Source: Cyclobacteriaceae bacterium (lineage in GTDB: Bacteria > Bacteroidota > Bacteroidia > Cytophagales > Cyclobacteriaceae). Taken from it: a DNA stretch of 64,000 nucleotides. Shown here piece by piece: positions 32,093-46,458 of the stretch. The translations under genes were made by a program, and so were the position numbers. The notes below the pieces were generated by a model. It made no database searches, had not been told where the DNA came from, and saw only the letters and a program-made list of their open reading frames with translations. Each line of letters opens with the position of its first letter. Within the stretch, counting starts at the first letter, position 1. Location: positions 620,001 through 684,000 of the forward strand of contig JAEUUF010000013.1 of the NCBI GenBank assembly GCA_016787645.1, in the 5' to 3' direction.

Positions 32093-32592
32093 CGGTGGCT
32101 TCGGGAGCCTCAGCCACCGATGGTTGTATACGCCGATGATCGTTCGGCGTTGCGGGCCAATATCATTCATCTCCTTTAGATACAATTTCCTGTAGCCCTC
32201 AATACTCTCATCCACAAATAACCCCGGGCTAAAACCCGGGGCTACAATCATTCACCCTTGATGAGATGCACAAGGTTGTTGAGCACATTGTTGGTGTTCT
32301 TCACCAACAATGTCGGATCTAACGAACCCGGTGGCTGAGGCTCCCGAAGCCACCGACTGTTGCGTACGCCAATGATCATTCAGCGTTGCGGGCCAATACA
32401 ATTCATCTCCTTTAGATACAATATTTCCTGTAGCCCTCATTGCCCCTACTACAAATAACCCAGGATTAAAACCCGGGCTACAATCATTTCACCCTTGATG
32501 GGGTGCATAAGGTTGTTGAGCACATTGTTGGTGTTCTTCACCAACAATGTCGGATCGAACGACCCCGGTGGCTGAGGCTCCCGAAGCCACCG
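32093..32592. repeat. Hairpin-rich tandem duplication, 236-bp units
   Basis: Two direct units of 236-237 bp bounded by three 27-nt near-palindromes (32093-32119, 32329-32355, 32566-32592; arms CGGTGGCT/AGCCACCG). The first palindrome is inverted relative to the other two at its centre. Each unit contains a perfect 11-bp hairpin (CATTGTTGGTG TTCTT loop; 32286-32312 and 32523-32549), and the first has a 7-bp CCCCGGG stem (32222-32241). Shared landmarks are CATCTCCTTTAGATACAAT and GGTTGTTGAGCACATTGTTG. It fills most of the 641-bp gap between the hybrid kinase and the Rhs-type cluster; short reading frames in it are not protein-like. Confidence 0.9.
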
Positions 32593-32729
32593 ACACACCG
32601 ACGGAATTCGAGAAAAAAATCGTCAGGCTTTCCGTACAGGTAAAAATTCTGCCTGCTGAGCTACTGCTTCTACTTTGCCGTTGCATTCGAGCACATCGAG
32701 TGCACATCAGAAATCTTAAATCTAGAAGC

Positions 32730-33095
32730 ATGAAAACACTCAATCCACCTCAACTAAAAGTATGCGCTATGATCCTACTGCTGTTGTGCTCCGGTAACAA
32801 TCTCCTTGCACAGTCTGAGGATAACCAGGCTCCGGGCAAAAAAACACGATCGAATGTACTATACCATCCAGAAAAAATGAGTCACAGTCTTCCACTCAAT
32901 GCGATCGGCGCCGCCGCCCTCCTGGATACATCGCGTGTCTCTCGCAACCCGGTCAAATTGAGATTTCCTGCAGGAGATCGACTCTTTCCTTCAGACTCCA
33001 TGTTCCACCGACTTGGTGTCACACTCAAAGCGGAAAGCTCATCAGGCAACTGGACCCGGATTTTCAGATCCATCCCGTTGATAAATCAAAACTGA
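32730..33095 (+). CDS. Small secreted protein heading Rhs cluster
   Basis: A 121-residue protein with a signal peptide (about 1-28, hydrophobic core VCAMILLLLCSGNNLLA, cleavage after AQ). The mature part is basic with Ser-rich stretches and no domain I recognise; it ends IFRSIPLINQN. The start at 32730 is preferred because the frame upstream runs back into the tandem repeat. It ends 10 bp before the SpvB-like gene, so it is probably the first gene of that transcript. Function unknown; possibly a leader or chaperone for the large proteins, or a remnant. Confidence 0.6.
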   Translation: MKTLNPPQLKVCAMILLLLCSGNNLLAQSEDNQAPGKKTRSNVLYHPEKMSHSLPLNAIGAAALLDTSRVSRNPVKLRFPAGDRLFPSDSMFHRLGVTLKAESSSGNWTRIFRSIPLINQN

Positions 33096-33105
33096 CGTAC
33101 TACTT

Positions 33106-36100
33106 ATGAAATCACTAGCTACCCTAACCCTCTACCTCCTCGTTGTAGTCACGGGTTCGGCACAATCATTACCCACCGGCGGCTCTCACGTTGTACTTCC
33201 CTCCCCAAACTCATGGAGTGCGGCCAATGAAACCAAAACAGATGTTGATCTGTACACAGGCCGACTGAATTTCACCTTTCCACTTCATGTACTGAGATCC
33301 CGCGATCTTGAAATGCCCATCACCCTGCAATATTCTTCCGATGGCATCAAAGTGAATGACCTCGGCAGTGATGTGGGACTTGGGTGGCAACTCAATGCCG
33401 GGGGCGTCATTGCGCGGGTGATGCGGGGACTCCCCGACGAATTCGATGGGCCCTATGATGTCACCTACTCGTGCCCAACCAGCCTGACGGGATGCCATAA
33501 TACGATTCCCGGAAAAGGCTTCCTTGATGCCAATGTGGGCGACAATGCCGACCTGGCCCACTTCGCCTCGGCGAGCCGATCGGAAGAAGAACGGAAACAG
33601 ATTATTGAAAACGCCAATCGAACGGGACAATACGTAGGACCCGGTCAGCAAGCCTGGGACACCGAACCCGATGAGTTCTACTTCAATTTTGACCGGTATT
33701 CCGGGAAGTTTGTCTTTGATAAGAATGGTGAGATCCAAATCATCCCTCGTCAAAACCTGTTCATCATCAAAACTATTTCCAATAACCTCTTTTCTTTCGC
33801 GGAGGCTGGCAGCGCCATGATCACCTCATTCCAGGTAACGGACGATCGTGGGATAAAATACACCTTCGGAAACGTGAACCCAGGCTCAGCCGCGAACATG
33901 ACTGCTATTGAGGTCACCAAGTATTCCCTGGCCTCTGTTTCATTCCAACTTGGATATCTCTTCGACGGGGCCGCATCATACGGCCAGTCCGTCAATCTCT
34001 TCGCAAGAATTCCTGTCTTGCTGACGAAGAATAGCCTGCCCGACTATCGATATGACGAGACGCCCAACAAGCAGACGTTTACCTCGAGCTGGTACCTGAC
34101 TAAGGTAGAGTCACCCACAGGTGACAACATCATCCTGGATTATGTAGGTGAAGAAATCATGTACATCACCGGGAGAACTCACGATGTATCCCAGCTGAAT
34201 TTGGACTCCTACGTCTCACCCGAATACCTGTACTTCGGAACGGACAAACTCGACGATGCGGAGCCATCCGAAAGTGATGGACTCTACTATCAGGGGCAGC
34301 AGTTTACCATATCTACTTCCAAATCAACCATCAAAAGCAAAAAGTTGAAATCCATCACCGCTGCCAGTGGTGAAAAAGTAACCTTGACCAGTTCCATTCA
34401 ACGACCAGACCTTGTCGGCGCAAGACGCATCGAGTACCTGAACATCATGAATCAGAACAATCAATGGGTCAAGGGATATCAATTCAGGTATGACCTGATG
34501 ACTTCTCCTTTCGAGGAGTATCTATATGAATTCAAGGTGGCCAGTACCGGCGGATTCCTCTACCCTCATGAGTTCATGAGCATCCGCCAGTTGAATAATT
34601 TTATTTTTAGCCCCGTGCCCATGAACCAGGCCGACTGGGTCGCCATGACACAGGCCAATCATTTTCGCCTGCTCCTCTCCAGTGTCGCGGAGGTTTTCCC
34701 GGGAACCAATGCTGAGGACCTGGTGTCCTTCGAGTACCATACCGACTTCACGCTCCCGATTCGGTTCTCCGCACAGCAGGATGAGTATGGTTACTACAAC
34801 AGCAACCCAGCGGGTCACACCTTGCAAAATATGACCTACAGGGATACGTACAACGTGCCCGTCCAGGTACCGGTTGTTTTCGCATCCCTGTATCACGATG
34901 CTCTCGGAAATCTCTACATGAGACCTTCTGCGGTTGACTTGCGGGAAGTGGATCTAAAAGCAAGAACCGGCTCGCTGAAAAATATCATTCACAAAAACGG
35001 ATCAAAAACAACCATCAACTATTCCCGCTTCCAGGGGTTGAGAGTATCCTCGCTATACACCTACCCGGACAAAAATGGTCCGGATGTGGAGACAACGCAG
35101 TTCAACTACTACTACCCGCAGTCCGCCAGCATTCCAGCCATCTACCTGGCCGAGTATCCGTTGATGACCATTCCCAACTTTGGATTAAGAACGAATATTA
35201 CCTTAAGCAATGAACCGGTCAATCAAGCTTGGTACAAGACCCACGGCGGGTTTATTGGTTATGGGGCGGTTCATAAAATCCGAACAGGGAACGGCAGAGA
35301 GGAATTCGAATTCAGAAATCCGCTGAGTGACCCCGATACGTATTACACAAGGTATCTGGCGAATTCAAGTCCAGGCGGGGGAGCCACATCGCTGACTACC
35401 GGCAATTATTTTCCCTACGCGCTTCGAAACCAGGTTGACTATCAAAGAGGTCAACTTAGAAAAAGGACGGTGCGAAACCAGGCCGATCAAGTCCTGCAAA
35501 TCGACACCTATGTGTACCGTGTTAATCCGCCGGGTTATGTTCCACAACTGGTCTTTGGCCTGAAGCCCGGAAAATACACGGTAGACGATGTTGATTGGTA
35601 CGCCGCATCCTTTTACCGGTACCAAACCGATTGGGTATACCTGGATTACATGGATTCAAAAGTATACGACCAGTCCGAGCCCGGGGTGGAAAGCAAAAGC
35701 GCGATAACCACCACGCGATACTTCTATAATCGACCGGGAGAATCGACTCCTGCCCCGGACATGCTCGCGAGGAAGATTTCCACAATACTTCCAAATGGCG
35801 ATGTGATTAGTAACGAGACCAAGTATCCGCTCGACTTTGCCACCTCGGCGACACCAACAGATACACCAGCTAAAGGAATTCATCTCCTGAAATCCGCCAA
35901 GATGGAAAGCTTTCCGATTGAGGGCATTTCCTACCTGGAAAGGACAGAAGCGGGCACAACGTCTAAGTTCTTATTAAGTGGTTCGCTTGTAAAATTCAAA
36001 GAGTTTCAAACCGGTAAGGCCTACCCATGGGAATCGTACAAGCTTAAAGCCGGCAAGGGAATTCCTTTTTCGACCTACTCCTGGTCAACAATTACCAACA

Positions 36101-37062
36101 ACGTCTTTACATGGAGCAACAGCTCCAACTTTAAACTGTCCGGGAATATTGACGCCTATGATGCCTTTGGCAAACCCCTGAGCCAAACCGGCGAAGAGGG
36201 CATTTCCAATACCATGACATGGGGCTACGGCAATTCGCTGTTGACCTCCATCGTGCAAAATGCAGGAGCCTATCAGCATCAGATCAGCTATACCCATACC
36301 CCGTTGGTGGGCGTCACGCAGGTTACCGATCCCAATTCAAGAAGTAAGAAATATACCTATGACAAATACAACCGGCTGAAATTGGAAAGCGATCATGATA
36401 ATCAGATCGTAGCCCGTTACCGGTACCATTATCAGAATCAGACGGAGGGCTTTCTCAATACCGTCATCACAAGAAATGGTTGCACTATGGCTGGCGAGTC
36501 CCTGACCTTTTCCAGCGCAGAAAATATCGAACATGGCCAAACCACCTATCAATGGAATTTTGGAAATGGGAATTCACAGTCCACTACTTCCACGAGCATT
36601 GCCTATGTGTACCCCAGTCCGGGTACGTTCACCGTGGGCCTCACCAAAGATAATCCGGAATACGCGGCTCAGAATCTTCAAAACAACATCACGATCTACA
36701 AACCCATTGGGAGTGTAAACAGTTCGGTAACCGGACCCATCACTTATGATGTTTGTACGCTTATCCCACCGACACAACCAACAACGTTGATGGCCAGTTT
36801 TCGAATGAGTGGAAGATTACCTGGCGATGCATTCAACGTAGTGTGGGAATACCAATTCAACCAGGGAGCCTGGACACAACTGAAGTATGAGGCCGGACCG
36901 GTGGGTAGTTCGTCAAGTCCGCCACCGCCTGGTTTTGGAAATCCAACCATGACGGGCACCTGGAATATCCGGTGCCGGGGTGAAAATGCATGCGGCGTGC
37001 CCTTCACGGCCACGTTTACCCTCTCCAATTACGCAAGCAACCCGCTTTGTTCACGTTACTGA
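33106..37062 (+). CDS. SpvB/TcB-like YD-repeat protein with PKD domain
   Basis: A 1318-residue exported protein (signal MKSLATLTLYLLVVVTGSAQ). Residues about 40-110 carry the SpvB/TcB-like start: VDLYTGRLNFTFPLHV, MPITLQYSSDGIKVNDLGSD and VGLGWQLNAGGVIARV. The long middle is strand-rich with degenerate YD repeats (ISYTHTPLVGVTQVTDPNSR, KYTYDKYNRLKLE, at about 1050-1100). A PKD domain follows (about 1126-1205; YQWNFGNGNSQ, YVYPSPGTFTVGL), then a Cys-containing beta domain to the end. There is no Rhs core and no toxin tail. Family knowledge: TcB/SpvB-type proteins form one half of the hollow shell of Tc toxins. The Rhs protein encoded 12 bp downstream would be the other half (inference). Confidence 0.75.
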   Translation: MKSLATLTLYLLVVVTGSAQSLPTGGSHVVLPSPNSWSAANETKTDVDLYTGRLNFTFPLHVLRSRDLEMPITLQYSSDGIKVNDLGSDVGLGWQLNAGGVIARVMRGLPDEFDGPYDVTYSCPTSLTGCHNTIPGKGFLDANVGDNADLAHFASASRSEEERKQIIENANRTGQYVGPGQQAWDTEPDEFYFNFDRYSGKFVFDKNGEIQIIPRQNLFIIKTISNNLFSFAEAGSAMITSFQVTDDRGIKYTFGNVNPGSAANMTAIEVTKYSLASVSFQLGYLFDGAASYGQSVNLFARIPVLLTKNSLPDYRYDETPNKQTFTSSWYLTKVESPTGDNIILDYVGEEIMYITGRTHDVSQLNLDSYVSPEYLYFGTDKLDDAEPSESDGLYYQGQQFTISTSKSTIKSKKLKSITAASGEKVTLTSSIQRPDLVGARRIEYLNIMNQNNQWVKGYQFRYDLMTSPFEEYLYEFKVASTGGFLYPHEFMSIRQLNNFIFSPVPMNQADWVAMTQANHFRLLLSSVAEVFPGTNAEDLVSFEYHTDFTLPIRFSAQQDEYGYYNSNPAGHTLQNMTYRDTYNVPVQVPVVFASLYHDALGNLYMRPSAVDLREVDLKARTGSLKNIIHKNGSKTTINYSRFQGLRVSSLYTYPDKNGPDVETTQFNYYYPQSASIPAIYLAEYPLMTIPNFGLRTNITLSNEPVNQAWYKTHGGFIGYGAVHKIRTGNGREEFEFRNPLSDPDTYYTRYLANSSPGGGATSLTTGNYFPYALRNQVDYQRGQLRKRTVRNQADQVLQIDTYVYRVNPPGYVPQLVFGLKPGKYTVDDVDWYAASFYRYQTDWVYLDYMDSKVYDQSEPGVESKSAITTTRYFYNRPGESTPAPDMLARKISTILPNGDVISNETKYPLDFATSATPTDTPAKGIHLLKSAKMESFPIEGISYLERTEAGTTSKFLLSGSLVKFKEFQTGKAYPWESYKLKAGKGIPFSTYSWSTITNNVFTWSNSSNFKLSGNIDAYDAFGKPLSQTGEEGISNTMTWGYGNSLLTSIVQNAGAYQHQISYTHTPLVGVTQVTDPNSRSKKYTYDKYNRLKLESDHDNQIVARYRYHYQNQTEGFLNTVITRNGCTMAGESLTFSSAENIEHGQTTYQWNFGNGNSQSTTSTSIAYVYPSPGTFTVGLTKDNPEYAAQNLQNNITIYKPIGSVNSSVTGPITYDVCTLIPPTQPTTLMASFRMSGRLPGDAFNVVWEYQFNQGAWTQLKYEAGPVGSSSSPPPPGFGNPTMTGTWNIRCRGENACGVPFTATFTLSNYASNPLCSRY

Positions 37063-37089
37063 CCCTCAACTTTTATGGAAGTCACAACT

Positions 37090-40000
37090 ATGATCATCAA
37101 ATTCGCCCGTTGCCTTGCCGCATTCACCATTGTCAGCGTTTGCCATGGGCAATCCAACATTCCCCCATCACCAGAAAAGAATTATGTCCGTACCGAGCGA
37201 GTTCTGGTTGGAGGAATAACCCAGGAATATCAGATATCCACGTTGCCACTTACTCAAAAGGGCACCTCCTATCAGTATTTGGATGGAATAGGGAGAAAGC
37301 TGCAGGAAGTCAATGTCAAGGGAAGTCCCATGCTGGCGGACATTATTGTTCCGCATGCATACGACAACACGGGGCGCGAACCCATTGTCTATTTGCCTTA
37401 TGCAAGCCTTCCTGAAGCTGGAGGGAAGTTCCGATCAACGGCCATCAACGCCCAAAGAAACTTTTATGCCGAACCACCCCGAGGAGTTGCCGCATCAACG
37501 ATCGGCCCTTACACGCAGTACACGTTTGAGCAATCACCCCTGGACCGGGTGGTAGAAACTGCCAAACCGCGTGATGATTCCTGGAATTCAGTGCCGCGCA
37601 AGTCAACCACGTATGTAAAACTAAACGGTGCCAATGAAGTCCCGCTCTGGAAAGACCTTACTTCAGGCCTACCCCAGCGCTCAGGATTTCACGCGGCCAA
37701 CACCTTGCGCGTTAAAGAGACCACCGATGAAGAAGGCAAGATTGAAAAGATTTATACCAACTTCAGAGATCAAGTTGTCATGAGCCGTGTGGGCAACGCA
37801 TCGGGGTGGTTCGATACACACTACATCTATGCACCATCCGGATTACTTATGAAAGTGCTTCAGCCGGAAGGTGCAGCACGGCTGGCCACCGAGTTTGATG
37901 GCGTTACCGATGCGGAGAAAAAGTCGTTCATGGATCGGTGGATGTTTCAATACCAGTACGACATTGAGCAACGGCAAGTGGCCAGGCGCATCCCGGGTAA
38001 CGCCGAGGACTCGGTGGGCTGGCAGTACACAGTGTATGACCGGTGGAATCGCGTTGTACTTACACAAGATCCCGACCAAAGGATCCGAAACGAATATTCC
38101 TTCGTCAAATACGACAGGTTCAACCGCCCTATCCTGACTGGACTCTACATCACGAATGCAAGCCTATCCAGCTTAAGAACAAGCGCCGCCGCGTCCGTGG
38201 CAAGGTTTGAATCGGAGCAAAACAATTCAACGGGGTATACCCTCTCTGCCACCTTCCCCACCACTATTTCAGAGAGCGATCTAACCACCGTCACCTACTA
38301 CGATAGTTATGCCTTTTTATCCTACACCGGGTGGGATGCAGAAAGTAACAATTATAGTTTTTCTGCGCTGGAAGGCTATCCCCAGGGAAGCGAACTCCAG
38401 ACGTCGGTAAAAGGCCAACCAACCGGTTCGAAGATCAGGATATTAGGAACCACCACATGGCTTAACTCGGTGACGCACTACGACAAGAACTACAGGCCGG
38501 TCCAGGTTATTTCCGAAAATCATCTTGGGGGTACTTTGAGAACCACCACATTATTTGATTTCGTAGGGAATACACTGAAAGAGCAATTGTATAACACCCA
38601 TGCAAACCTGACCATTCAAAGCAGGTATCTGTATGATCATGCAGGTCGACTGACGACGATATATCACCAGGTGAACAGTCAACCCGAGATACTGATGGCT
38701 TCCTATAAATACAATGAAGTGGGTCAACTAACTGAGAAGAACATTCATTCCGTCGACTATGGATCCACCTACCTGCAATCCGTTGACTTCCGGTACAACA
38801 TCAAGGGATGGATGACCCACATCAATAACGCATCGTTCACAACCGATTGGGCGAACGATGACACGAATGACAAGTTCGGGATGGAGCTTCAATACTACGT
38901 CCCAACTCCTATGAATGTTGGCACCGCCGGGGACATCATCCAGCAGAAGAACCTCTTTGACGGAAATATTTCCGCAATAAAATGGAAGATGGACAACCAG
39001 CAGGACACTCCCGAAGAGCGCGCGTATGTCTTTGATTACGACATACTGAGTCGCCTCAGGAGGGCACACTATGCAAGAAATACACAAACCTGGTCCAATC
39101 CGTCCTGGACCGGAGACTCAGGAATGTTTGATGAGGTGATCAGTGGCTATGATAAAAATGGGAATATCAAGGTCACGGATGGCGCGGGTAATCCGGATGT
39201 GGCCGTCACCCGCTATGGCAAGATCCAGAATAGCAAAGGCATTGTTGATCAGCTCAAATTCGGGTATCAACTGAATGGGAAGCACAGCAACCGGCTGATT
39301 GATCTGGATGATGGAGGAAGCAACGCGCTGGGGTTTACTCCGGCCAGCGCCAGCATCACCGAAGAATACCAATACAGCAAGAGCGGGAATCCAACCTATG
39401 ACCACAACAAATCCATTTCAAATATTCTCTATAATCACCTGAACCTTGTCAAAGAAGTTCAGTTTACACGGCCTTCGGGGCAGATCGATAAGATCGAATA
39501 CACCTACGATGCGCTTGGAAATAAATTGAGTACAATGGTCAAGAAGAACAATGTCTCCGTATGGAGAACTGACTACGTCGGTGAAATGCAATACGACAAT
39601 GGCACGCTCTCTTTTTTCAGCACGAAAGAAGGAAGGGTTGTCAGGAATGGCACTAGCTATGATTATGAGTACTTTCATAAGGATCACCTGGGGAATGTCC
39701 GCATGGTGTATGGGCTGCTGAAGGAAACACTGACTTACCGGGCTTCGATGGAAAATCCAGCCGGCAATCCTGCGGTGGCACAAAAGGAAGAGGCTGCGTT
39801 CAGGAATATCAGCAACACTCGTTACACCGATCCATCCTATAACTACACCCCTTCTTCAGAGGCAGTGATTGGGCCGGACAAATCGGCCAGGGTAAATGGC
39901 TATACCGGATACAGCCCTGTGGGGCCTGCCAAAGTCCTGGCGGTGAGTACCGGTGACAAGGTCTATATGGAAACCTATGCCCGGTACAGCCAGGTGACCG

Positions 40001-41358
40001 GGAGCAGCACCGTGATTGCCGGAACCGCGCTTCTTTCGGCCTTCACATCTCCGTTCGGCATCATCAGCTCCGGCGAAACAGCCACACTCTATCAGTCGTT
40101 CAGCACCAGCCTGCCCGGTGTTTCCGCAGGGATGGGTACCAGCAGCACGGTTCCCAAGGCGTACCTCGTGTGGCTGTTCTTCAATTCCAGCAATCAATTC
40201 GTAAATGCCGGTGGCCAGGCCATTACCACGGCTGCGTACAACGACTTTGAGAAACTGAGCCGGTCGTTCACGGCTACGCAGAATGGCTATCTCTACGTGT
40301 ACGTCGCCAACGAGAGCAGCGGAAACGCGGGGTCGAGCGTCTACTTTGACGAGACCTACCTTGTGCATGAGAAGAACAACCTGGCATTGCAGGTGTTGCA
40401 AGCCACTGATTACTATCCCTTCGGGCTCTCCTTCAATCAATATCAAAGTGATCGGCTTAAGGAGACTTCGGCGGGTAACTATTCACCGGAGTTGAGAAAC
40501 CGGTACCTGCTCCAAAGCCAGGAATTTCAGAAAGACCTCGACCTCAAGTTTTACCAATTCCAGTGGAGGATGTATGATCCCGCTGTTGGTCGGTTTGCAG
40601 CCATTGACCCGAAGGCTACTGAAATGCAGCCATGGTCTGCTTACACTTTCAACTATGACAGTCCGCTAAGGTTCATCGATCCCGACGGACAAAAGCCCAC
40701 GCCGGCCGAGGCTGCAAGGATGTCGCTGCATGTTTATGGCGAGTCATCTGATGATATTCTCATCGGCGGTTGGCGTGTTTCTCAAAGACAATTTGGAAAT
40801 CTCAATGATGATACAGGCCTTAAGTCTGTTGTGTACGAGCGGGTGGTGAATGGAAAAGTTACAGAGTATACCTATGCCACTGCAGGAACGGAAAAAAATT
40901 TGAAAGACGTCAAGGCGGATGTTACACAACCGCTCGGATTATCTGAACAATACCGCAGCGCCGCTACACATGCAAAGCGTATCTCTGATCTTCTTGGCGA
41001 CATTGAGCTTAGTTTCACAGGTCACTCTCTCGGCGGCGGTGAGGCCGCACTCAATGCGTTGCTGACCGGCCGGTATGCCATCACTTTTAATGCGGCCGGA
41101 GTCAGTTTGCTCACCAAATATCAAGAAGGCTCCTGGATTACCCCCTTCAAGTCAGAAAGTAAGATTGATGCTTATATCATGCTGACCGATCCGCTAAATC
41201 TATTTCAAAAGAACCTGGCACTACCCTCCTCAAATGGAAATGTGCATTACTTGATTCCCAGGAGCCTGTCGTCCATTATTAATGGTCACAGCATAGAAAA
41301 TGTTCTGAAAAACTTTGATATGAAAGATTCGGATTGGCTTATATTTCATTTCAAATAG
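37090..41358 (+). CDS. Rhs polymorphic toxin with C-terminal class-3 lipase
   Basis: About 1422 residues, exported (MIIKFARCLAAFTIVSVCHG). I favour 37090 because GGAAG lies 8 nt upstream; an in-frame ATG also exists at 37075. Order: DUF6443 (TKGTSYQYLDGIGRKLQEV-like region, about 25-140), YD/Rhs repeats (about 250-850), and the Rhs-associated core (about 1110-1200: YYPFGL, YQFQWRMYDPAVGRFAAIDP, YTFNYDSP and IDPDGQ). The variable tail (about 1202-1422) is an alpha/beta-hydrolase of lipase class 3: LSFTGHSLGGGEAALNAL has the nucleophile elbow with Ser at about 1313; Asp at about 1367 (LTDP) and His at about 1400 (INGHSIENV) are candidate triad members. It probably attacks phospholipids of competitors. 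Two ankyrin lipoprotein genes follow at once. Confidence 0.9.
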   Translation: MIIKFARCLAAFTIVSVCHGQSNIPPSPEKNYVRTERVLVGGITQEYQISTLPLTQKGTSYQYLDGIGRKLQEVNVKGSPMLADIIVPHAYDNTGREPIVYLPYASLPEAGGKFRSTAINAQRNFYAEPPRGVAASTIGPYTQYTFEQSPLDRVVETAKPRDDSWNSVPRKSTTYVKLNGANEVPLWKDLTSGLPQRSGFHAANTLRVKETTDEEGKIEKIYTNFRDQVVMSRVGNASGWFDTHYIYAPSGLLMKVLQPEGAARLATEFDGVTDAEKKSFMDRWMFQYQYDIEQRQVARRIPGNAEDSVGWQYTVYDRWNRVVLTQDPDQRIRNEYSFVKYDRFNRPILTGLYITNASLSSLRTSAAASVARFESEQNNSTGYTLSATFPTTISESDLTTVTYYDSYAFLSYTGWDAESNNYSFSALEGYPQGSELQTSVKGQPTGSKIRILGTTTWLNSVTHYDKNYRPVQVISENHLGGTLRTTTLFDFVGNTLKEQLYNTHANLTIQSRYLYDHAGRLTTIYHQVNSQPEILMASYKYNEVGQLTEKNIHSVDYGSTYLQSVDFRYNIKGWMTHINNASFTTDWANDDTNDKFGMELQYYVPTPMNVGTAGDIIQQKNLFDGNISAIKWKMDNQQDTPEERAYVFDYDILSRLRRAHYARNTQTWSNPSWTGDSGMFDEVISGYDKNGNIKVTDGAGNPDVAVTRYGKIQNSKGIVDQLKFGYQLNGKHSNRLIDLDDGGSNALGFTPASASITEEYQYSKSGNPTYDHNKSISNILYNHLNLVKEVQFTRPSGQIDKIEYTYDALGNKLSTMVKKNNVSVWRTDYVGEMQYDNGTLSFFSTKEGRVVRNGTSYDYEYFHKDHLGNVRMVYGLLKETLTYRASMENPAGNPAVAQKEEAAFRNISNTRYTDPSYNYTPSSEAVIGPDKSARVNGYTGYSPVGPAKVLAVSTGDKVYMETYARYSQVTGSSTVIAGTALLSAFTSPFGIISSGETATLYQSFSTSLPGVSAGMGTSSTVPKAYLVWLFFNSSNQFVNAGGQAITTAAYNDFEKLSRSFTATQNGYLYVYVANESSGNAGSSVYFDETYLVHEKNNLALQVLQATDYYPFGLSFNQYQSDRLKETSAGNYSPELRNRYLLQSQEFQKDLDLKFYQFQWRMYDPAVGRFAAIDPKATEMQPWSAYTFNYDSPLRFIDPDGQKPTPAEAARMSLHVYGESSDDILIGGWRVSQRQFGNLNDDTGLKSVVYERVVNGKVTEYTYATAGTEKNLKDVKADVTQPLGLSEQYRSAATHAKRISDLLGDIELSFTGHSLGGGEAALNALLTGRYAITFNAAGVSLLTKYQEGSWITPFKSESKIDAYIMLTDPLNLFQKNLALPSSNGNVHYLIPRSLSSIINGHSIENVLKNFDMKDSDWLIFHFK

Positions 41359-41397
41359 TTTGTCAGACTTTACAAGCCAAGGAACCAAAAGACATTC

Positions 41398-42249
41398 ATG
41401 AAAAATGTAAGCTCCTACGCACTCGGTTTCTTCCTCCTTCTTTCCTGCTCCACCAAGGAGAATTTGACAGGAGGAGACTACGAACTGTTTAAGAACACCC
41501 CCGCCTGGGAATTGGCCAAAGCAGTCAGGGATGAAGATCAGAAAGGCATCGCTGCGTTGGTGAGCCAACATCCTAAACTCATCAACTACCAGGAACCCAA
41601 ATATGGGAACACCTTGCTGATGTTAACCGTGATGAATCAACAAAAGAAGTCATTCTTGAGCCTCCTGGATCTGCAGGCAGACATCAGTATTCATAATTCC
41701 TTTGATGGTAGCTCAGCGCTGATTATGGCTTGTGAATATCGCGCACACGATCTGGAATTTATTGAAACACTGCTCAAAAGGGGCGCAAACCCCAGCGATG
41801 TTGAAATTGGGCCAAGGGCAAAAGGCAACAGCACCAGGCAGACTCCCCTGATGGTGGCGGGCAGGTCAGGGAGCCTGGAGGCAGTAGAGTTGCTTGTGCG
41901 TAACGGGGCTGACATCAAGTATCAAAATGAGTACAAGCAATCTGCGTTGACCGAAACGGTGATGGAAGGAAACTGCGAAATCGCGCTGTACCTGCTTAAA
42001 CAAGGGGCGGATTACCAGCAGCCGATTTTTTTTCGGCCTGAACAGAACAGAGACATGTATTTGGTGGATGTGTTGCGCGAGTATTTCTTTCCGTTAAATT
42101 CACCAGAACATACACAGAAAATGGAAGTGGTCGAATTCCTGAAGAGTAAAGGGATCGACTATTGGTCCGCCCCCGTGCCCGACTTCATCAAGAAGAAGGC
42201 TCAGGAACAGTACCCGGATACCTGGACCGAATATTTGAAGAAATATTAA
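41398..42249 (+). CDS. Ankyrin-repeat lipoprotein, candidate immunity protein 1
   Basis: A 283-residue lipoprotein (signal with lipobox LLSC at about residue 17) containing four or five ankyrin repeats: GNTLLMLTVMNQQKKSFLSL, SSALIMACEYRAHDLEFIET, RQTPLMVAGRSGSLEAVELL, QSALTETVMEGNCEIALYLL. The C-terminus (KKKAQEQYPDTWTEYLKKY) is non-ankyrin. It starts 39 bp after the lipase-tailed Rhs gene. Ankyrin-repeat proteins are known immunity partners in polymorphic toxin systems, and periplasmic or membrane-tethered immunity is usual for phospholipase effectors, so I infer that it neutralises the lipase domain. It is paralogous to the next gene. Confidence 0.85.
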   Translation: MKNVSSYALGFFLLLSCSTKENLTGGDYELFKNTPAWELAKAVRDEDQKGIAALVSQHPKLINYQEPKYGNTLLMLTVMNQQKKSFLSLLDLQADISIHNSFDGSSALIMACEYRAHDLEFIETLLKRGANPSDVEIGPRAKGNSTRQTPLMVAGRSGSLEAVELLVRNGADIKYQNEYKQSALTETVMEGNCEIALYLLKQGADYQQPIFFRPEQNRDMYLVDVLREYFFPLNSPEHTQKMEVVEFLKSKGIDYWSAPVPDFIKKKAQEQYPDTWTEYLKKY

Positions 42250-42261
42250 CACTTAAGTTCT

Positions 42262-43116
42262 GTGATGAAAACACTAACCAGTTTCCTGCTCGTCATCTTC
42301 CTCCTCCTGGCTTGTTCCACCAAAGAAAAACTGACCGGAGAAGACTATCAACTGTTTAAGGACACACCCGCCTGGGAGCTGGCCAAAGCCGTCAGGGATG
42401 AAGATGAAGAGCGGATCACCGGGTTGGTGAACGAAAATCCAACGCTGATCGACTACCAGGAACCGACGTACGGGAAAACCCTGCTGATGCTAACCATCCG
42501 CAATCAGCAAAAGAAGCCATTCTTCACTCTTTTGAACCTGAATGCAGACGTCGGCATTCATGACAACTTTCAGGGCAGCTCCGCGCTGATCGAGGCTTGC
42601 CGGTTTGATCTGTATGACATTGAATTCATTGAGCAACTGCTCAAAAAAGGAGCCAATCCGAATGATGCACAGGTGGGAACCGGAGCAAGCGAAGGCGGTA
42701 CCCGCCACACGGCACTGATGGCCGCCAGCATATCCGGCAGGCTTGACTTCGTCGAGTTGCTGGTCCGCCATGGGGCCGACATCACCTATCAAAACGAGTT
42801 CAAGCAATCGGCCCTGACGGAAGCCACACTGCAGGAAAACTATGAGATTGTTCTCTATTTGCTGACAAACGGGGCGGATTATACACGGCCGATATTCTTC
42901 CGCCCGGAAACGAATAAGGACATGTTCCTGGTGGATGTGCTGCGCGAGGATTTCTTTCCCTTGAACTCACCGGAACACACACAGAAAATGGAGGTAGTTG
43001 ACTTTCTGAAAAATAAGGGGATCGACTATTGGTCCGCCCCCGTGCCCGACTTCATCAAGAAGAAGGCTCAGGAACAATACCCGGATACCTGGGCGGATTA
43101 CCTGGAAAAGTATTAG
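42262..43116 (+). CDS. Ankyrin-repeat lipoprotein, candidate immunity protein 2
   Basis: A 284-residue paralogue of the preceding protein, about two thirds identical by eye, with its own lipobox (LLAC) and the same ankyrin layout (GKTLLMLTIRNQQKKPFFTL, SSALIEACRFDLYDIEFIEQ, HTALMAASISGRLDFVELLV, QSALTEATLQENYEIVLYLL). The 12-bp gap to the first copy and 18-bp gap to the next gene suggest one mRNA. The last 75 bp before the C-terminal tail (43018-43092) match 42151-42225 with one mismatch, more than the rest of the pair, which points to gene conversion. Duplicated immunity genes often keep protection against older toxin variants; that is inference. Confidence 0.85.
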   Translation: MMKTLTSFLLVIFLLLACSTKEKLTGEDYQLFKDTPAWELAKAVRDEDEERITGLVNENPTLIDYQEPTYGKTLLMLTIRNQQKKPFFTLLNLNADVGIHDNFQGSSALIEACRFDLYDIEFIEQLLKKGANPNDAQVGTGASEGGTRHTALMAASISGRLDFVELLVRHGADITYQNEFKQSALTEATLQENYEIVLYLLTNGADYTRPIFFRPETNKDMFLVDVLREDFFPLNSPEHTQKMEVVDFLKNKGIDYWSAPVPDFIKKKAQEQYPDTWADYLEKY

Positions 43117-43134
43117 CGCTAATCACACGGCGGA

Positions 43135-45147
43135 ATGAAAAAGGCAATCACCTGCTGGGCTATTCTTTCTCTCATCGGCTCTCTGGTCACCCAGGCCCAG
43201 GATACCCTCCGCACGGTCTCAGCCGATACCTCAGGAATCGTGACCGTCGCTCCTTACTACCAACTCGACCTTCGGACATCCAACTCGTACGTGAGCCAAT
43301 GGAACTACGCCAGTGACCTGAAACTTTCCTCCGGCGTAAGCATATTCAATGGTCTGCGCGGTAAGGTACCCGGCCTCACCATACCGGCTTACGTTGACCT
43401 CGCCAATGCTTCCGGCTTACGCACCGGCCCCTCTCCGTTCGTGAATGATGCTCTTCTTGTTATCGATGGAGTCCCCTTCAACAATGAAATCGGAAACTAC
43501 CGGAATCTGAATGCGTTTGACTACGCTTCCATCGCCGTCTTCTCGAATACCAATGCGTTGAGCTTCCTGGGAGGCACCAATTCAGGCGCGTTTGTATTGA
43601 ACAGCAAATCCGGAGAAGGAATGGAAAAGCCCTTGCTTGAGTTCAATGCCTACGCCACTTATGCCTGGGAAGAGGTGAAAGATTTCGCGACCGGCCTGCC
43701 TAAGAAAATTTCGGAGTGGTCCATGGCCAACTCATTCGCCTATGGCCAGGATTTCGGAAAGCTGGATACCCGGATAGCGTATACCCTGCAAAAAAAATAC
43801 GGGAGAGGTTTCGCCGAGCCCTACATTCATTATCTGAAAGCAAATACAGGATGGGCCTTGAGTCCGAGATTCAACCTGCGGCTGATCATTGATGGACGAT
43901 ATAGCACCTATGATGACACCTCTCCCTCCGGTGCCGCACCATCACCGGCCGAGAAGGCAGAAACAACAAGCTACATCAGCGGCAACCTGGTGGCCAGGTT
44001 CAAAATAAATGAGTGGCTTTCGCTCACGTCCCAATTAAGCACCTGGTCTTACTTTGACCACAACACCCTGACAGGCGTATCCTTCGGCACGGACAGCAAG
44101 AATACCAACTCGTACCAGCAAGCAAACTTGCTCGCCAATGTCGCCCGGCAACTGGGCAAGGTCAACCTGTCAGGGCTGGCCGGCTACCAGGTCGCCACCC
44201 AGGACATTCATGGGAACATTTCGACCTATGGCCCATTTCCGAACAGCAGTGAATCGGCCTGGTCGGATCGGTATCCTTATTTCCTCGGTCAAGCCGGTTT
44301 CACCTATGCCGACCGCTTCAACATGTCCGGCCACTTTCGGGAAGGGACACACAACAACTCCTCCAACAACAACACGGCGGCCAGCGCGCGATCCGCAGGG
44401 TTCTCTTTGATTTTCACCGACTGGATTGCGCGATCTTTCCTCACTTTAGGAAAACTCAGAGCCTCCGTCGGGTCACATACTGTAGTGGCGTACAACAGTT
44501 ATCCCATCCCTGACTTGAGTACTTACTACAAGGGAACTTTTCGCTCATTTCCATACGATGTCCACAACCAGGAAGTCGGGCTTGATCTGGGTTTCCTCCA
44601 TTCGCGCCTCCTGCCCACCTTGAATTACTACCAGAACGAAGAGAAGTATTTCGATAATCCGAACATCGGCAATCAGATCACGAATTACAAGACCGGTGGT
44701 TGGGAAACGGATATCCGGTTCAATGCCTGGAAGACGGCCTATCTCACCTATCAAACCGGGATCGTCCTGTCAAGTTCCACCTCCCAACTTCAAGTGGATG
44801 GTGTGTCCCAATCGGAGAGTAAAGCCTATACGCGGGTCGGATGGAACAATCAGCTAAAATTCAAGGCCCTTCAAATCAATTTACTCATTGAATCGTATCA
44901 GAATTACACGGGATATGCCAGCAACACAGGCTTTGTGGATGCTTCCTTTACCCTGCTGCGTGATCTTTCATTCAGCTTCAACCTCCCTGCCACCACCCTC
45001 TTTGGACTGGAGACACGAAGCATGACCGTGTCAGTCATCGGACGCAATCTGCTCAAGTTTGGGGGATCAGGTCCGGACATTGACGTGGCTTCCGGACTAT
45101 CAGTCTTTCGGAAGAGCGCAAGCGTCAACCTGAATATCACCTTCTGA
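43135..45147 (+). CDS. Shortened SusC/RagA-like TonB-dependent receptor
   Basis: A 670-residue outer-membrane protein with signal peptide (MKKAITCWAILSLIGSLVTQ). A plug domain lies at about 55-165: GVSIFNGLRGKVPGLTIP, NDALLVIDGVPFNNEIGNYR and SIAVFSNTNALSFLGGTNSG, close to the SusC signature (LRGRVPGL, I-D-G-V-P, E-V-L-K-D-A-x-S-A-A-x-Y-G), although the E-V-L-K-D block is altered. Strand-rich sequence to the C-terminal ASVNLNITF could form a barrel. SusC proteins are about 1000 residues and have a carboxypeptidase-like N-terminal domain and a SusD partner; both are missing. It lies in the Rhs transcript (18-bp gap), so it may serve surface assembly, secretion or uptake of that toxin. Confidence 0.7.
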   Translation: MKKAITCWAILSLIGSLVTQAQDTLRTVSADTSGIVTVAPYYQLDLRTSNSYVSQWNYASDLKLSSGVSIFNGLRGKVPGLTIPAYVDLANASGLRTGPSPFVNDALLVIDGVPFNNEIGNYRNLNAFDYASIAVFSNTNALSFLGGTNSGAFVLNSKSGEGMEKPLLEFNAYATYAWEEVKDFATGLPKKISEWSMANSFAYGQDFGKLDTRIAYTLQKKYGRGFAEPYIHYLKANTGWALSPRFNLRLIIDGRYSTYDDTSPSGAAPSPAEKAETTSYISGNLVARFKINEWLSLTSQLSTWSYFDHNTLTGVSFGTDSKNTNSYQQANLLANVARQLGKVNLSGLAGYQVATQDIHGNISTYGPFPNSSESAWSDRYPYFLGQAGFTYADRFNMSGHFREGTHNNSSNNNTAASARSAGFSLIFTDWIARSFLTLGKLRASVGSHTVVAYNSYPIPDLSTYYKGTFRSFPYDVHNQEVGLDLGFLHSRLLPTLNYYQNEEKYFDNPNIGNQITNYKTGGWETDIRFNAWKTAYLTYQTGIVLSSSTSQLQVDGVSQSESKAYTRVGWNNQLKFKALQINLLIESYQNYTGYASNTGFVDASFTLLRDLSFSFNLPATTLFGLETRSMTVSVIGRNLLKFGGSGPDIDVASGLSVFRKSASVNLNITF

Positions 45148-45153
45148 CGGGTA

Positions 45154-46458
45154 ATGAAAGGGGCTGCAACCATACTCTTGCTGCTCATCCTTCACAACAG
45201 CTTCTCGCAAATCAACATCACACTTTCCTCACGGCATCAAAATAGATTGACGGAAATCAAGTCGGGTCACAAGCGGGCAAAACACTTCTACCGGTACTTT
45301 AAAAAAGACAGCCTCCGCCAACTGAGACGACTCAACCGACAAGCGCGGAAATCGTGGGACAGCCTCAGCCGGGCTGCGCGCAATCAAAGAAACACCCTAC
45401 GGGAAATTCAAAGCCCTAACCCTGAAAAGACCCTCGACAGCATCAACGCGCAAATATCCTCGTGCAGGGCAATCCTCAATAATCCGGTTTCTCCTGACAG
45501 CTTGCGGGAAGTCGCCAAAAGAAAAGCGAGAGGACTGACATTCATCAAACTTCGCTATTTGCCAAACTTCGCCACCCTGGAAAATGCGTTTCTGAATTTG
45601 CCGGATTCCGCATCTTGGAAAGACATGGCCAACCCAATGCCAGGATTGGACTCCATCGATGTTCTCTTCAGCAATCCAGGTGAGCTTTTGGACTTCGCTG
45701 CAAAAAACTCCGAATCACAATTTTCAGCCATCCCATCATTGGGCAATGGTACACCGTTAACAGAAGGTCTGGCCGAATTCCAGGAGTTGAACAACCGGAT
45801 CAAAGAACCTAAAATGGATGCCGCCAGCGCGGACTCGCTCTTGAACCGAAAGGTGGTGCTTGAGACCGTCGTTCAAAAGTTGGGTCACCTGTTTTCAAAA
45901 TACAGTTCCTTTTCCAATTCAGCAGATCTCAGTGACGCCACGAGCCGATCATCGCTGCAGGGAAAATCATTTTATGAACGAATAACACTGGGCGGTAATG
46001 TCAATGTAATCAGCACCGATCCGTTCTGCATGGATTTCTCGCCCCAGTTGGGCTTTCGGATTACCAGTCGGTTTGTCGTTGGCCTGGGGGTGAACTATCG
46101 CATCAGCTTTGGCGACTCAATCCAATATAAGGGTTGGTCCGTCAGCACCACCAACAGGGCAATCCATGCATTTGCGAGCTATGCGTTTCTCACTAGCTGG
46201 TACGGGTACTCCGAAGTTCAACTCTCCGCGGCAAGCTTTTCCGAGTCAGAGGCAAAATGGAAAGGAAACTATTTTGTCGGCCTGGGCAAAAAATTCCTGG
46301 TGCATCCAAAAATGTATATGACCTTAACACTGCTGTACAACCTTAATCCAGACAACCAAAACCAAATCTACCCCCAACGATTTCAACTTCGCTTGGGCTT
46401 TCAAACCAGTGATTTGGCCTTCCGAAAGAAGCGTATGAATTTTGACCCAAATCGATAA
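45154..46458 (+). CDS. Helical-plus-beta-barrel envelope protein of Rhs cluster
   Basis: A 434-residue exported protein (signal MKGAATILLLLILHNSFSQ). Residues about 25-130 are highly charged and helical (KRAKHFYRYFKKDSLRQLRR and RNTLREIQ), likely a coiled coil; a middle region is Asn/Ser-rich; the last about 170 residues alternate strands with aromatic ends (FSPQLGFRITSRFVVGLGVN, YSEVQLSAASFSESEAKWKG, FQLRLGFQTSD), as in small outer-membrane barrels. It begins 6 bp after the SusC-like gene and is probably made with it. I know no named family for it. Confidence 0.6.
   Translation: MKGAATILLLLILHNSFSQINITLSSRHQNRLTEIKSGHKRAKHFYRYFKKDSLRQLRRLNRQARKSWDSLSRAARNQRNTLREIQSPNPEKTLDSINAQISSCRAILNNPVSPDSLREVAKRKARGLTFIKLRYLPNFATLENAFLNLPDSASWKDMANPMPGLDSIDVLFSNPGELLDFAAKNSESQFSAIPSLGNGTPLTEGLAEFQELNNRIKEPKMDAASADSLLNRKVVLETVVQKLGHLFSKYSSFSNSADLSDATSRSSLQGKSFYERITLGGNVNVISTDPFCMDFSPQLGFRITSRFVVGLGVNYRISFGDSIQYKGWSVSTTNRAIHAFASYAFLTSWYGYSEVQLSAASFSESEAKWKGNYFVGLGKKFLVHPKMYMTLTLLYNLNPDNQNQIYPQRFQLRLGFQTSDLAFRKKRMNFDPNR

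Follow-up and report, generated by a model that had tools for sequence, protein, structure and literature searches.

A candidate polymorphic toxin operon in a Cyclobacteriaceae bacterium: an Rhs protein with a Tle6-like lipase tail and two ankyrin lipoproteins as predicted immunity partners

The window, a 64,000-nucleotide stretch of DNA from a Cyclobacteriaceae bacterium, contains a long Rhs gene followed by two adjacent genes for ankyrin-repeat lipoproteins (Table 1). A further in-frame ATG lies upstream of the Rhs start at 37075, and the open reading frame of the second ankyrin protein could alternatively begin with a GTG at 42262. Profile searches assigned Rhs residues 46-166 to DUF6443 (E 6e-28) and residues 1108-1201 to Rhs_assc_core (NCBIfam, E 1e-9, above cut-off); the Pfam RHS_repeat match scored under its cut-off. 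The protein has the arrangement of Rhs polymorphic toxins, with repeats and core ahead of a variable tail. A preliminary description of this locus had reported a lipase tail of about 220 residues behind the Rhs core and two neighboring ankyrin lipoproteins, and this layout is confirmed by the open reading frames, the domain matches, the alignment to PDB 7ubz_B and the conservation of the triad.

Table 1. Features of the Rhs locus, in window positions
Feature	Position	Strand	Basis
Exported protein, weak SpvB and RHS matches, PKD domain; conserved chassis gene 5' of Rhs	33106..37062	+	
Rhs protein of 1422 aa, predicted polymorphic toxin, with signal peptide, DUF6443, repeats and core	37090..41358	+	signal peptide by eye
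C-terminal Tle6-like lipase domain, residues 1203-1422	40696..41355	+	PDB 7ubz_B, 67-tail profile, Pfam Lipase_3
Nucleophile elbow GHSLGGG, residues 1311-1317, with Ser1313	41020..41040	+	conservation in aligned tails
Asp1367, predicted triad acid, aligned to Tle Glu393	41188..41190	+	tail alignment; triad numbering from PMC11470151 (partial text)
His1400, predicted triad histidine, aligned to Tle His448	41287..41289	+	tail alignment; PMC11470151 (partial text)
Ankyrin-repeat lipoprotein 1, candidate immunity, lipobox Cys17	41398..42249	+	Pfam, N-terminus
Ankyrin-repeat lipoprotein 2, candidate immunity, lipobox Cys17	42265..43116	+	Pfam, N-terminus
SusC-like outer-membrane protein, 670 aa, 3' of the cassette; accessory chassis gene	43135..45147	+	
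Exported protein with a helical region, possibly ending in an outer-membrane barrel; its family is associated with DUF6443 Rhs genes	45154..46458	+	

When the tail alone was compared with the PDB, it matched a solved T6SS lipase effector, Tle of E. cloacae (7ubz_B, E 5.7e-6). A profile of 67 tails (the window plus 66 of 80 loci) matched the same chain with E 6.7e-32, profile positions 11-217 being aligned to chain positions 50-304 with the triad in register, such that Tle S341/E393/H448 correspond to window S1313/D1367/H1400. Ser1313 and His1400 were invariant and G-H-S-x-G-G was present in all 67 aligned tails; position 1367 was acidic in 65 (Asp in 46, Glu in 19). The Pfam Lipase_3 match was borderline: the tail by itself scored 22.4 bits, with the cut-off at 22, and the domain scored 18.9 bits within the whole protein. 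As judged by sequence comparison, the likeness to lipases exceeds chance, and the tail combines the lipase-domain homology and Ser-acid-His triad that characterize Tle6. No match to the tail was found in phages and plasmids at E 1e-5, PADLOC returned nothing for the Rhs protein, and PHROGs returned nothing for the tail. A phylum-wide search gave weak tail matches in 6 of 11 genomes other than the window's own (E 5.5e-8 to 7.1e-6), none with an ankyrin gene within the stretch read, which in several stops inside the gene; these matches were set aside and treated as other lipases.

An ankyrin gene, scored as a profile-matching open reading frame (stop to stop) opening between 124 nt before and 31 nt after the tail stop, lay directly behind the lipase tail in 59 of 80 loci, a count that may be biased toward linkage because every seed tail used to find the loci had an ankyrin neighbor. 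Only four other ankyrin-profile reading frames were present across 810 kb of these loci, all in one locus (L090). Over 41 pairs, the Mantel correlation of tail distances was 0.75 with ankyrin distances and 0.37 with those of the proteins' own Rhs cores; controlling for the core left a tail-ankyrin correlation of 0.71. In most loci the tail is followed directly by a co-varying candidate immunity gene, as in Rhs toxins generally, and the joint variation that the preliminary description had proposed to look for among related Rhs loci was observed.

The pairing is not strict. The arrangement that had been named in advance as counter-evidence, a lipase tail with no ankyrin gene beside it, occurs at 20 of the 79 tail loci having room for one. 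At 19 of these 20, another candidate envelope protein occupies the same slot (15 from one unnamed family, 4 judged by eye), and the last (L089) has neither an ankyrin gene nor another candidate partner. When six other genomes were searched with the ankyrin protein alone, a tail was located upstream in two, one was interrupted by a contig end, and the remaining three, among them a tandem ankyrin pair, showed no tail over the stretch read.

The same chassis also carries different tails. Twenty-six same-genus Rhs genes read past their stop had other tails with no lipase match and no ankyrin gene at these places; same-genus relatives with other tails are up to 65% identical to the window Rhs. An interrupted second Rhs copy in one genome (G693) matched neither ankyrin nor lipase, and in one MAG of the same family a long Rhs reading frame with a different tail is followed by a short Rhs fragment consisting of the lipase tail and its ankyrin gene. 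The pair was also found on VgrG carriers (L083, L085 and L086), a PAAR carrier (L081) and a WXG100 carrier (L078), with low ankyrin scores (32-50 bits) at the VgrG and PAAR loci; its relatives are carried by Rhs proteins of many Bacteroidota and by a Clostridium WXG100 protein. Taken together, the linkage, the co-variation, the same-genus contrast and the Tle/Tli precedent favor the earlier proposal that the lipase tail and ankyrin lipoproteins form one toxin/immunity module, whereas the loci lacking an ankyrin gene speak against an obligatory partnership.

The two ankyrin proteins share 70% identity and both match Pfam Ank_2 (E 1e-18 and 2e-18). Each begins with a lipoprotein-type signal (LLSC and LLAC, Cys17), and the Cys17 column is cysteine in 45 of 47 rows of the ankyrin alignment. 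A simple pattern detected a lipobox-like start in 54 of 59 ankyrin partners and a hydrophobic anchor in three more; by the same pattern the partners in L083 and L085, both on VgrG carriers, have neither, and the partner in L081 also failed a looser signal test. Acidic residues at positions +2 to +6 constitute an outer-membrane surface-export signal of lipoproteins. Their scarcity in the ankyrin lipoproteins leans towards a periplasm-facing location. The Tli chain was absent among the PDB matches listed for single-sequence, family-profile and N-terminal-region queries (for two of these queries, the best 60 of 339 and of 526 matches); all three gave ankyrins in general among the matches listed, and a specifically Tli-like assignment was dropped. 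PADLOC and PHROGs matches were to ankyrin-type or nameless families only. The locus has the adjoining ankyrin-repeat lipoprotein, a candidate immunity protein, that accompanies Tle6, with a homology to Tli that, among the matches listed, could not be told apart from general ankyrin likeness.

The exported protein encoded 5' of Rhs has a match upstream of Rhs in five same-genus stretches (L135-L138 and L140); L139 has only weak matches, located downstream of Rhs. The unnamed helical/putative barrel family at the 3' end of the locus is strongly linked to DUF6443-Rhs genes. The SusC-like protein scored 62.8 bits against TIGR04056, under its cut-off, and its gene adjoins Rhs in L135, L136 and L138; a role as general export pore is unsupported, since the gene occurs in just 6 of 63 genomes of the genus, the window's own included. 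VipB (PF05943) had no match in the 99.8% complete window genome, this being one T6SS marker whose control matched E. coli alone and whose reach in Bacteroidota T6SSs is uncertain. T6SS delivery in this genome was set aside on that single marker, the carrier being a signal-peptide Rhs. The T9SS gene SprA is present, and the Rhs C-terminus, the place of T9SS sorting domains, is occupied by the lipase domain. The signal peptide and the VipB-negative result (one marker) are consistent with export via Sec plus an outer-membrane step, in which the helical/putative barrel family is a candidate player.

We consider it highly likely from these sequence features that the locus is a polymorphic toxin operon, in which the Rhs protein bears a Tle6-like lipase tail, the ankyrin lipoproteins provide immunity, and the two form a mobile cassette. 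The Rhs shell would leave the producer via Sec with the lipase as a replaceable tail. The tail would be a lipase with a Ser-Asp-His triad, phospholipase A1 being its most likely activity; its predicted substrates are the membrane phospholipids of a rival or sister cell, reached from the periplasm. The ankyrin lipoproteins very probably protect the producer from the tail; they would sit in its envelope and bind and block the lipase, conferring immunity on self and kin. Tail and ankyrin gene would travel as a single cassette among Rhs chassis and other carriers.

Bacteroidota secrete numerous lipases, and a signal peptide on the Rhs protein (assigned by eye) would fit an ordinary secreted nutritional lipase with bystander ankyrin genes. 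This is scarcely credible in view of the linkage in 59 of 80 loci, the co-variation beyond the Rhs core, the position after that core, and the presence of tail and ankyrin gene together on carriers of T6SS and T7SS type. The same carriers, along with the cassette-like immunity, suit interbacterial antagonism rather than a toxin aimed at eukaryotes such as predatory protists, with ankyrin proteins that would serve only to shield the producer from its own enzyme. Rhs and Tc-type proteins can target eukaryotes, and the upstream gene is weakly SpvB-like, but ankyrin genes lacking a tail exist, as expected of orphan immunity genes, and we regard a eukaryotic target as very unlikely.

It is also unlikely that the ankyrin proteins are chiefly lipase activators or folding partners with immunity secondary, in the way that cytosolic Tli activates Tle. 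Tli performs both roles in the available parts of PMC11470151 and PMC10294624, and two ankyrin copies could split activation and immunity. Both copies, however, have lipoprotein-type signals, and the activating crosslink is not recognisable in the window tail, at a loose end of the alignment. Some tail homologues have another partner family, and an ankyrin protein is therefore not required by all tails.

Returning to the toxin and immunity cassette, a wider generalization is possible but doubtful: Tle6/Tli may be one case of a carrier-independent lipase/envelope-immunity cassette distributed over T6SS, T7SS and Sec-exported Rhs, with Bacteroidota DUF6443-Rhs proteins having their own outer-membrane hardware. 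If so, this hardware would comprise the SpvB-like shell partner and the dedicated helical-plus-barrel protein, sometimes with a SusC-like protein, and would represent a T6SS-independent system for displaying or exporting Rhs proteins in Bacteroidota that has yet to be described. The possible barrel family tied to DUF6443-Rhs would be a concrete candidate for the as yet unexplained step by which Sec-exported Rhs toxins cross the outer membrane. The lipase/ankyrin pair, already known from the E. cloacae T6SS, is extended here to relatives on Rhs and WXG100 proteins. The cassette reading predicts that the tail is active without a glycation crosslink, that each ankyrin protein protects, and that an unrelated envelope protein can refill the immunity slot.

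The locus resembles Enterobacter cloacae Tle/Tli (proposed Tle6; PDB 7ubz, 9cys) in having a homologous lipase domain, whose triad is shared, and a partner gene encoding an ankyrin-repeat lipoprotein. According to the available part of PMC11470151, Tle acts as a phospholipase A1, and the ankyrin lipoprotein Tli neutralises it; Tli also activates Tle, cytosolic Tli promoting a glycation crosslink (PMC11470151, PMC10294624, both in part). Tle is a T6SS effector, whereas the window lipase is the tail of a signal-peptide Rhs in a genome that is VipB-negative (one marker), and the window locus has two ankyrin genes. The Arg180-Lys461 crosslink of Tle is not recognisable in the window tail because the helix bearing Arg180 precedes the aligned part, which starts at chain position 50, and the residue opposite Lys461 is Asp1413, a position with Lys in 6 and a gap in 22 of 67 tails at a loose alignment end. 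Because the one T6SS marker searched had no match and the crosslinked residues are not recognisable at this loose end, the tail is, by sequence, best called Tle6-like rather than a Tle6 T6SS effector.

Rhs toxins with Tox-ABhydrolase-3 (Zhang et al. 2012, PMC3482391) likewise carry a lipase-like alpha/beta hydrolase as an exchangeable tail on an Rhs chassis; the available part of that source, with which the window tail was compared by description, gives SUKH, Imm66 and Imm69 as their partners and lists Imm-ank for toxins that are nucleases or deaminases but not for lipases. The TANFOR toxins (PMC7073777) are also Bacteroidetes polymorphic toxins with downstream immunity; about 87% have a predicted Sec signal, and the authors assume an extra export step. 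They have a nuclease BaCT, whereas the window protein has a DUF6443/Rhs chassis and a lipase.

Seven closely spaced genes occupy the + strand of the window from 32547 to 46458, with inter-gene gaps of 6 to 39 nt; they include the Rhs gene, whose C-terminal lipase domain we call the tail, and two ankyrin genes as candidate immunity partners (see table). The source genome, a 4.0 Mb draft that is 99.8% complete, holds this Rhs gene in one copy. A gene matching the SpvB-like gene stands directly upstream of Rhs in same-genus relatives, and its product is possibly a shell partner of Rhs. The SusC-like gene, which here lies inside the Rhs operon, was found in just 6 of the 63 genus genomes, the source genome counted.

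Genes of the Rhs operon (positions within the window)
Product	Position	Strand	Features
182 aa protein	32547-33095	+	no family
Exported SpvB-like protein	33106-37062	+	signal peptide; weak SpvB and RHS matches; PKD domain
Rhs	37090-41358	+	signal peptide by eye; DUF6443 at 46-166; Rhs-associated core at 1108-1201; then tail, ~220 residues
Ankyrin lipoprotein 1	41398-42249	+	
Ankyrin lipoprotein 2	42265-43116	+	
SusC-like outer-membrane protein	43135-45147	+	670 residues
Exported protein (terminal protein)	45154-46458	+	no Pfam family; last gene of the operon

Against Pfam Lipase_3 the tail scored at the borderline (22.4 bits, cut-off 22). Searched against solved structures, the single tail sequence hit the T6SS lipase effector chain 7ubz_B best (E 5.7e-6). 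When 67 tails were combined in a profile, most of the length of that chain was matched with an E of 6.7e-32, a score that the proteobacterial members of the profile may help. The available text of PMC11470151 identifies this protein as Enterobacter cloacae Tle, a phospholipase A1 for which the family name Tle6 was proposed, with the catalytic triad Ser341/Glu393/His448, and describes its partner Tli as a lipoprotein with six ankyrin repeats that binds Tle. Opposite the Tle triad, by hand count along the printed alignment, the window Rhs, whose tail is homologous to Tle, has Ser1313, Asp1367 and His1400. The triad is conserved among the 67 aligned tails, a set that leaves out 14 of the 80 loci described below: Ser and His are present in 67/67, and Asp or Glu in 65/67.

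A four-tail alignment was scanned against a genome collection of 84,980 species, yielding 248 relatives, and the best 80 were analysed; since each of the four seed tails adjoins an ankyrin gene, this sample may lean towards such pairs. At 59 of the 80 loci an ORF matching the ankyrin profile (read stop to stop, same strand) opens somewhere from 124 nt upstream to 31 nt downstream of the tail stop, and only four further such ORFs occur in the 810 kb examined, all in locus L090. L090:2-9636 is an array in which two lipase tails occur along with five ankyrin ORFs; of these ORFs, four begin with a hydrophobic stretch in place of a lipobox, and the fifth is cut by the locus start. Three other tails came from a plain search across 296 family genomes, each adjoining an ankyrin ORF (3/3); at one of them, L007, this ORF is short and an overlapping ORF comes after it. 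Among 395 phylum genomes 11 others matched the tail; an ankyrin gene accompanies 5/5 matches with an E of 4e-14 or lower, and at least two of these five appear to repeat loci among the 80. No ankyrin gene was seen at the six weak matches, several of which have a read stretch that ends inside the gene.

The preliminary description had taken tail and ankyrin genes for one module and proposed a comparison of loci for joint variation. The two do vary together: tail and ankyrin tree distances correlate with r 0.75 (41 pairs with core) or r 0.71 (all 60 pairs), both sets including the window, whereas tail and core of the same polypeptide correlate with r of only 0.37; given the core, the tail-ankyrin value is 0.71. 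The pairing itself holds at the 59 loci and does not extend to the other 21 of 80, where no ankyrin match was found (one of these, L054, ends at a contig edge). At 15 of the 80 loci the partner slot is filled by another, unnamed protein family. Its members are mostly 185-253 residues long, begin by eye with a lipobox or hydrophobic stretch, and are probably envelope-anchored; the family profile was built from 13 of these loci and found the remaining two. Five members were scanned against Pfam, four giving no match and one a sub-threshold match. This second family lies directly after the tail in L042, L046, L047, L053, L057, L061 and others, many of them from Prevotellaceae and Muribaculaceae. 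At three ankyrin-less loci the slot is taken by a small protein resembling a multi-helix membrane protein; the candidate at L075 is another short protein, which may have a lipobox, and at L089 no partner candidate was found. Mapped onto the tail tree, the partner classes require 7 changes vs 18.9 with shuffled labels, so a few partner swaps have taken place. Ankyrin protein 1, searched in 395 class genomes, matched six besides the source genome: the tail lies upstream in two, one is cut by the contig end, and in three the ~1.5 kb read shows no tail, one of these lying near an apparent Rhs-core fragment and one being a tandem pair. Orphan immunity genes would explain these tail-less ankyrin genes, as might other functions.

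The Rhs chassis, that is, the carrier without its tail, has relatives in 49 of 63 genus genomes (source genome counted), and within the family sample the 16 remaining members of the genus all lack the lipase tail. Twenty-nine chassis relatives were fetched, 26 of them read through the stop and for 399 nt or more past it, and three cut; among the 26, one is 65% identical over 1,151 residues. Neither lipase tail nor ankyrin gene was found in the 29 (26 fully read), nor at an interrupted second copy in genome G693. The same chassis bears different tails: in G693 and G709 the SpvB-like gene, Rhs, a variable part, the SusC-like gene and the terminal protein gene follow one another as in the window, but the tail is a different one and no ankyrin gene is present. 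The terminal protein also occurs in G216 and G697, which gave no SusC match. In G693 (L136, L135) the chassis operon is present in two copies, with several genes interrupted by stop codons. A related chassis at L110 (G726:C19) has a tail resembling another alpha/beta hydrolase, with the motif GHSHGG by eye. In L008:97-8383, from a MAG, tail and ankyrin gene make up a short Rhs fragment that lies behind a long Rhs ORF bearing a different tail, an arrangement that resembles orphan rhs cassettes; fragment and long ORF, which begins at the contig start and is possibly cut, have a core stretch in common. Outside Bacteroidota, ankyrin-adjoining tails are fused to VgrG-type (L083, L085, L086), PAAR (L081) and WXG100 (L078, Clostridium) domains, with low ankyrin scores of 32-50 bits at L083, L085, L086 and L081.

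For export, T6SS VipB had no match in the source genome (one marker, its control positive in E. coli only), and T9SS SprA is present. Members of the terminal protein family are exported and have a helical region by eye; their C-terminal part is weakly outer-membrane-barrel-like (1/7 relatives scanned, E 4e-4, below cut-off). In 63 genus genomes, no fewer than 38 of 72 typed places of this protein family (source genome left out) have a typed Rhs place at a distance of 16 kb or less, a count resting on part of the Rhs places listed. The matches listed for the 296 family genomes comprise 148 typed places of the protein family outside the source genome and 150 typed DUF6443 places; 37 of the 148 are at most 16 kb from one of the 150, about 1.1 being expected by chance on a rough estimate for 5.5 Mb genomes, and of those sharing a contig with a DUF6443 place, 37/44 are this close. 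Thirty of these 37 listed places are on the same strand, 14 of the 30 downstream. The family is therefore well supported as linked to DUF6443-Rhs genes, and we would guess that it exports or displays Rhs.

Ankyrin proteins 1 and 2 are least alike at residues 41-60 and 81-160 (10-12 of 20 residues) and most alike at 221-280 (18/20). A lipobox-like start is present in 54/59 ankyrin partners by a simple pattern and in 53/59 by a looser one, L081 being among the misses; those of L024, L027 and L090 have a hydrophobic anchor, and those of L083 and L085 have neither by pattern. Since most partners thus bear a lipobox or anchor, they fit a periplasmic site of action. Sec would export Rhs, its shell shielding the tail; once at a target cell, the tail would hydrolyse phospholipids from the periplasmic side, and the envelope-anchored ankyrin proteins would bind and block it in producer and kin.

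No published title or abstract among those searched described this lipase/ankyrin pairing, whether on Rhs proteins or within Bacteroidota, and the term DUF6443 occurred nowhere in the literature searched. PMC3482391 is the one paper of that literature in which the terms ankyrin, immunity protein, lipase, Bacteroidetes and effector all occur; in its available text, lipase-like Tox-ABhydrolase toxins and Imm-ank are both present, not as partners. The Bacteroidetes toxins in the available text of PMC7073777 bear Sec signals and belong to another toxin class. Tle itself has an Arg180/Lys461 pair with no recognisable counterpart in the window tail, where the alignment is weak at that end; because of this, and of the lack of any cysteine, the tail is expected to be active without glycation.
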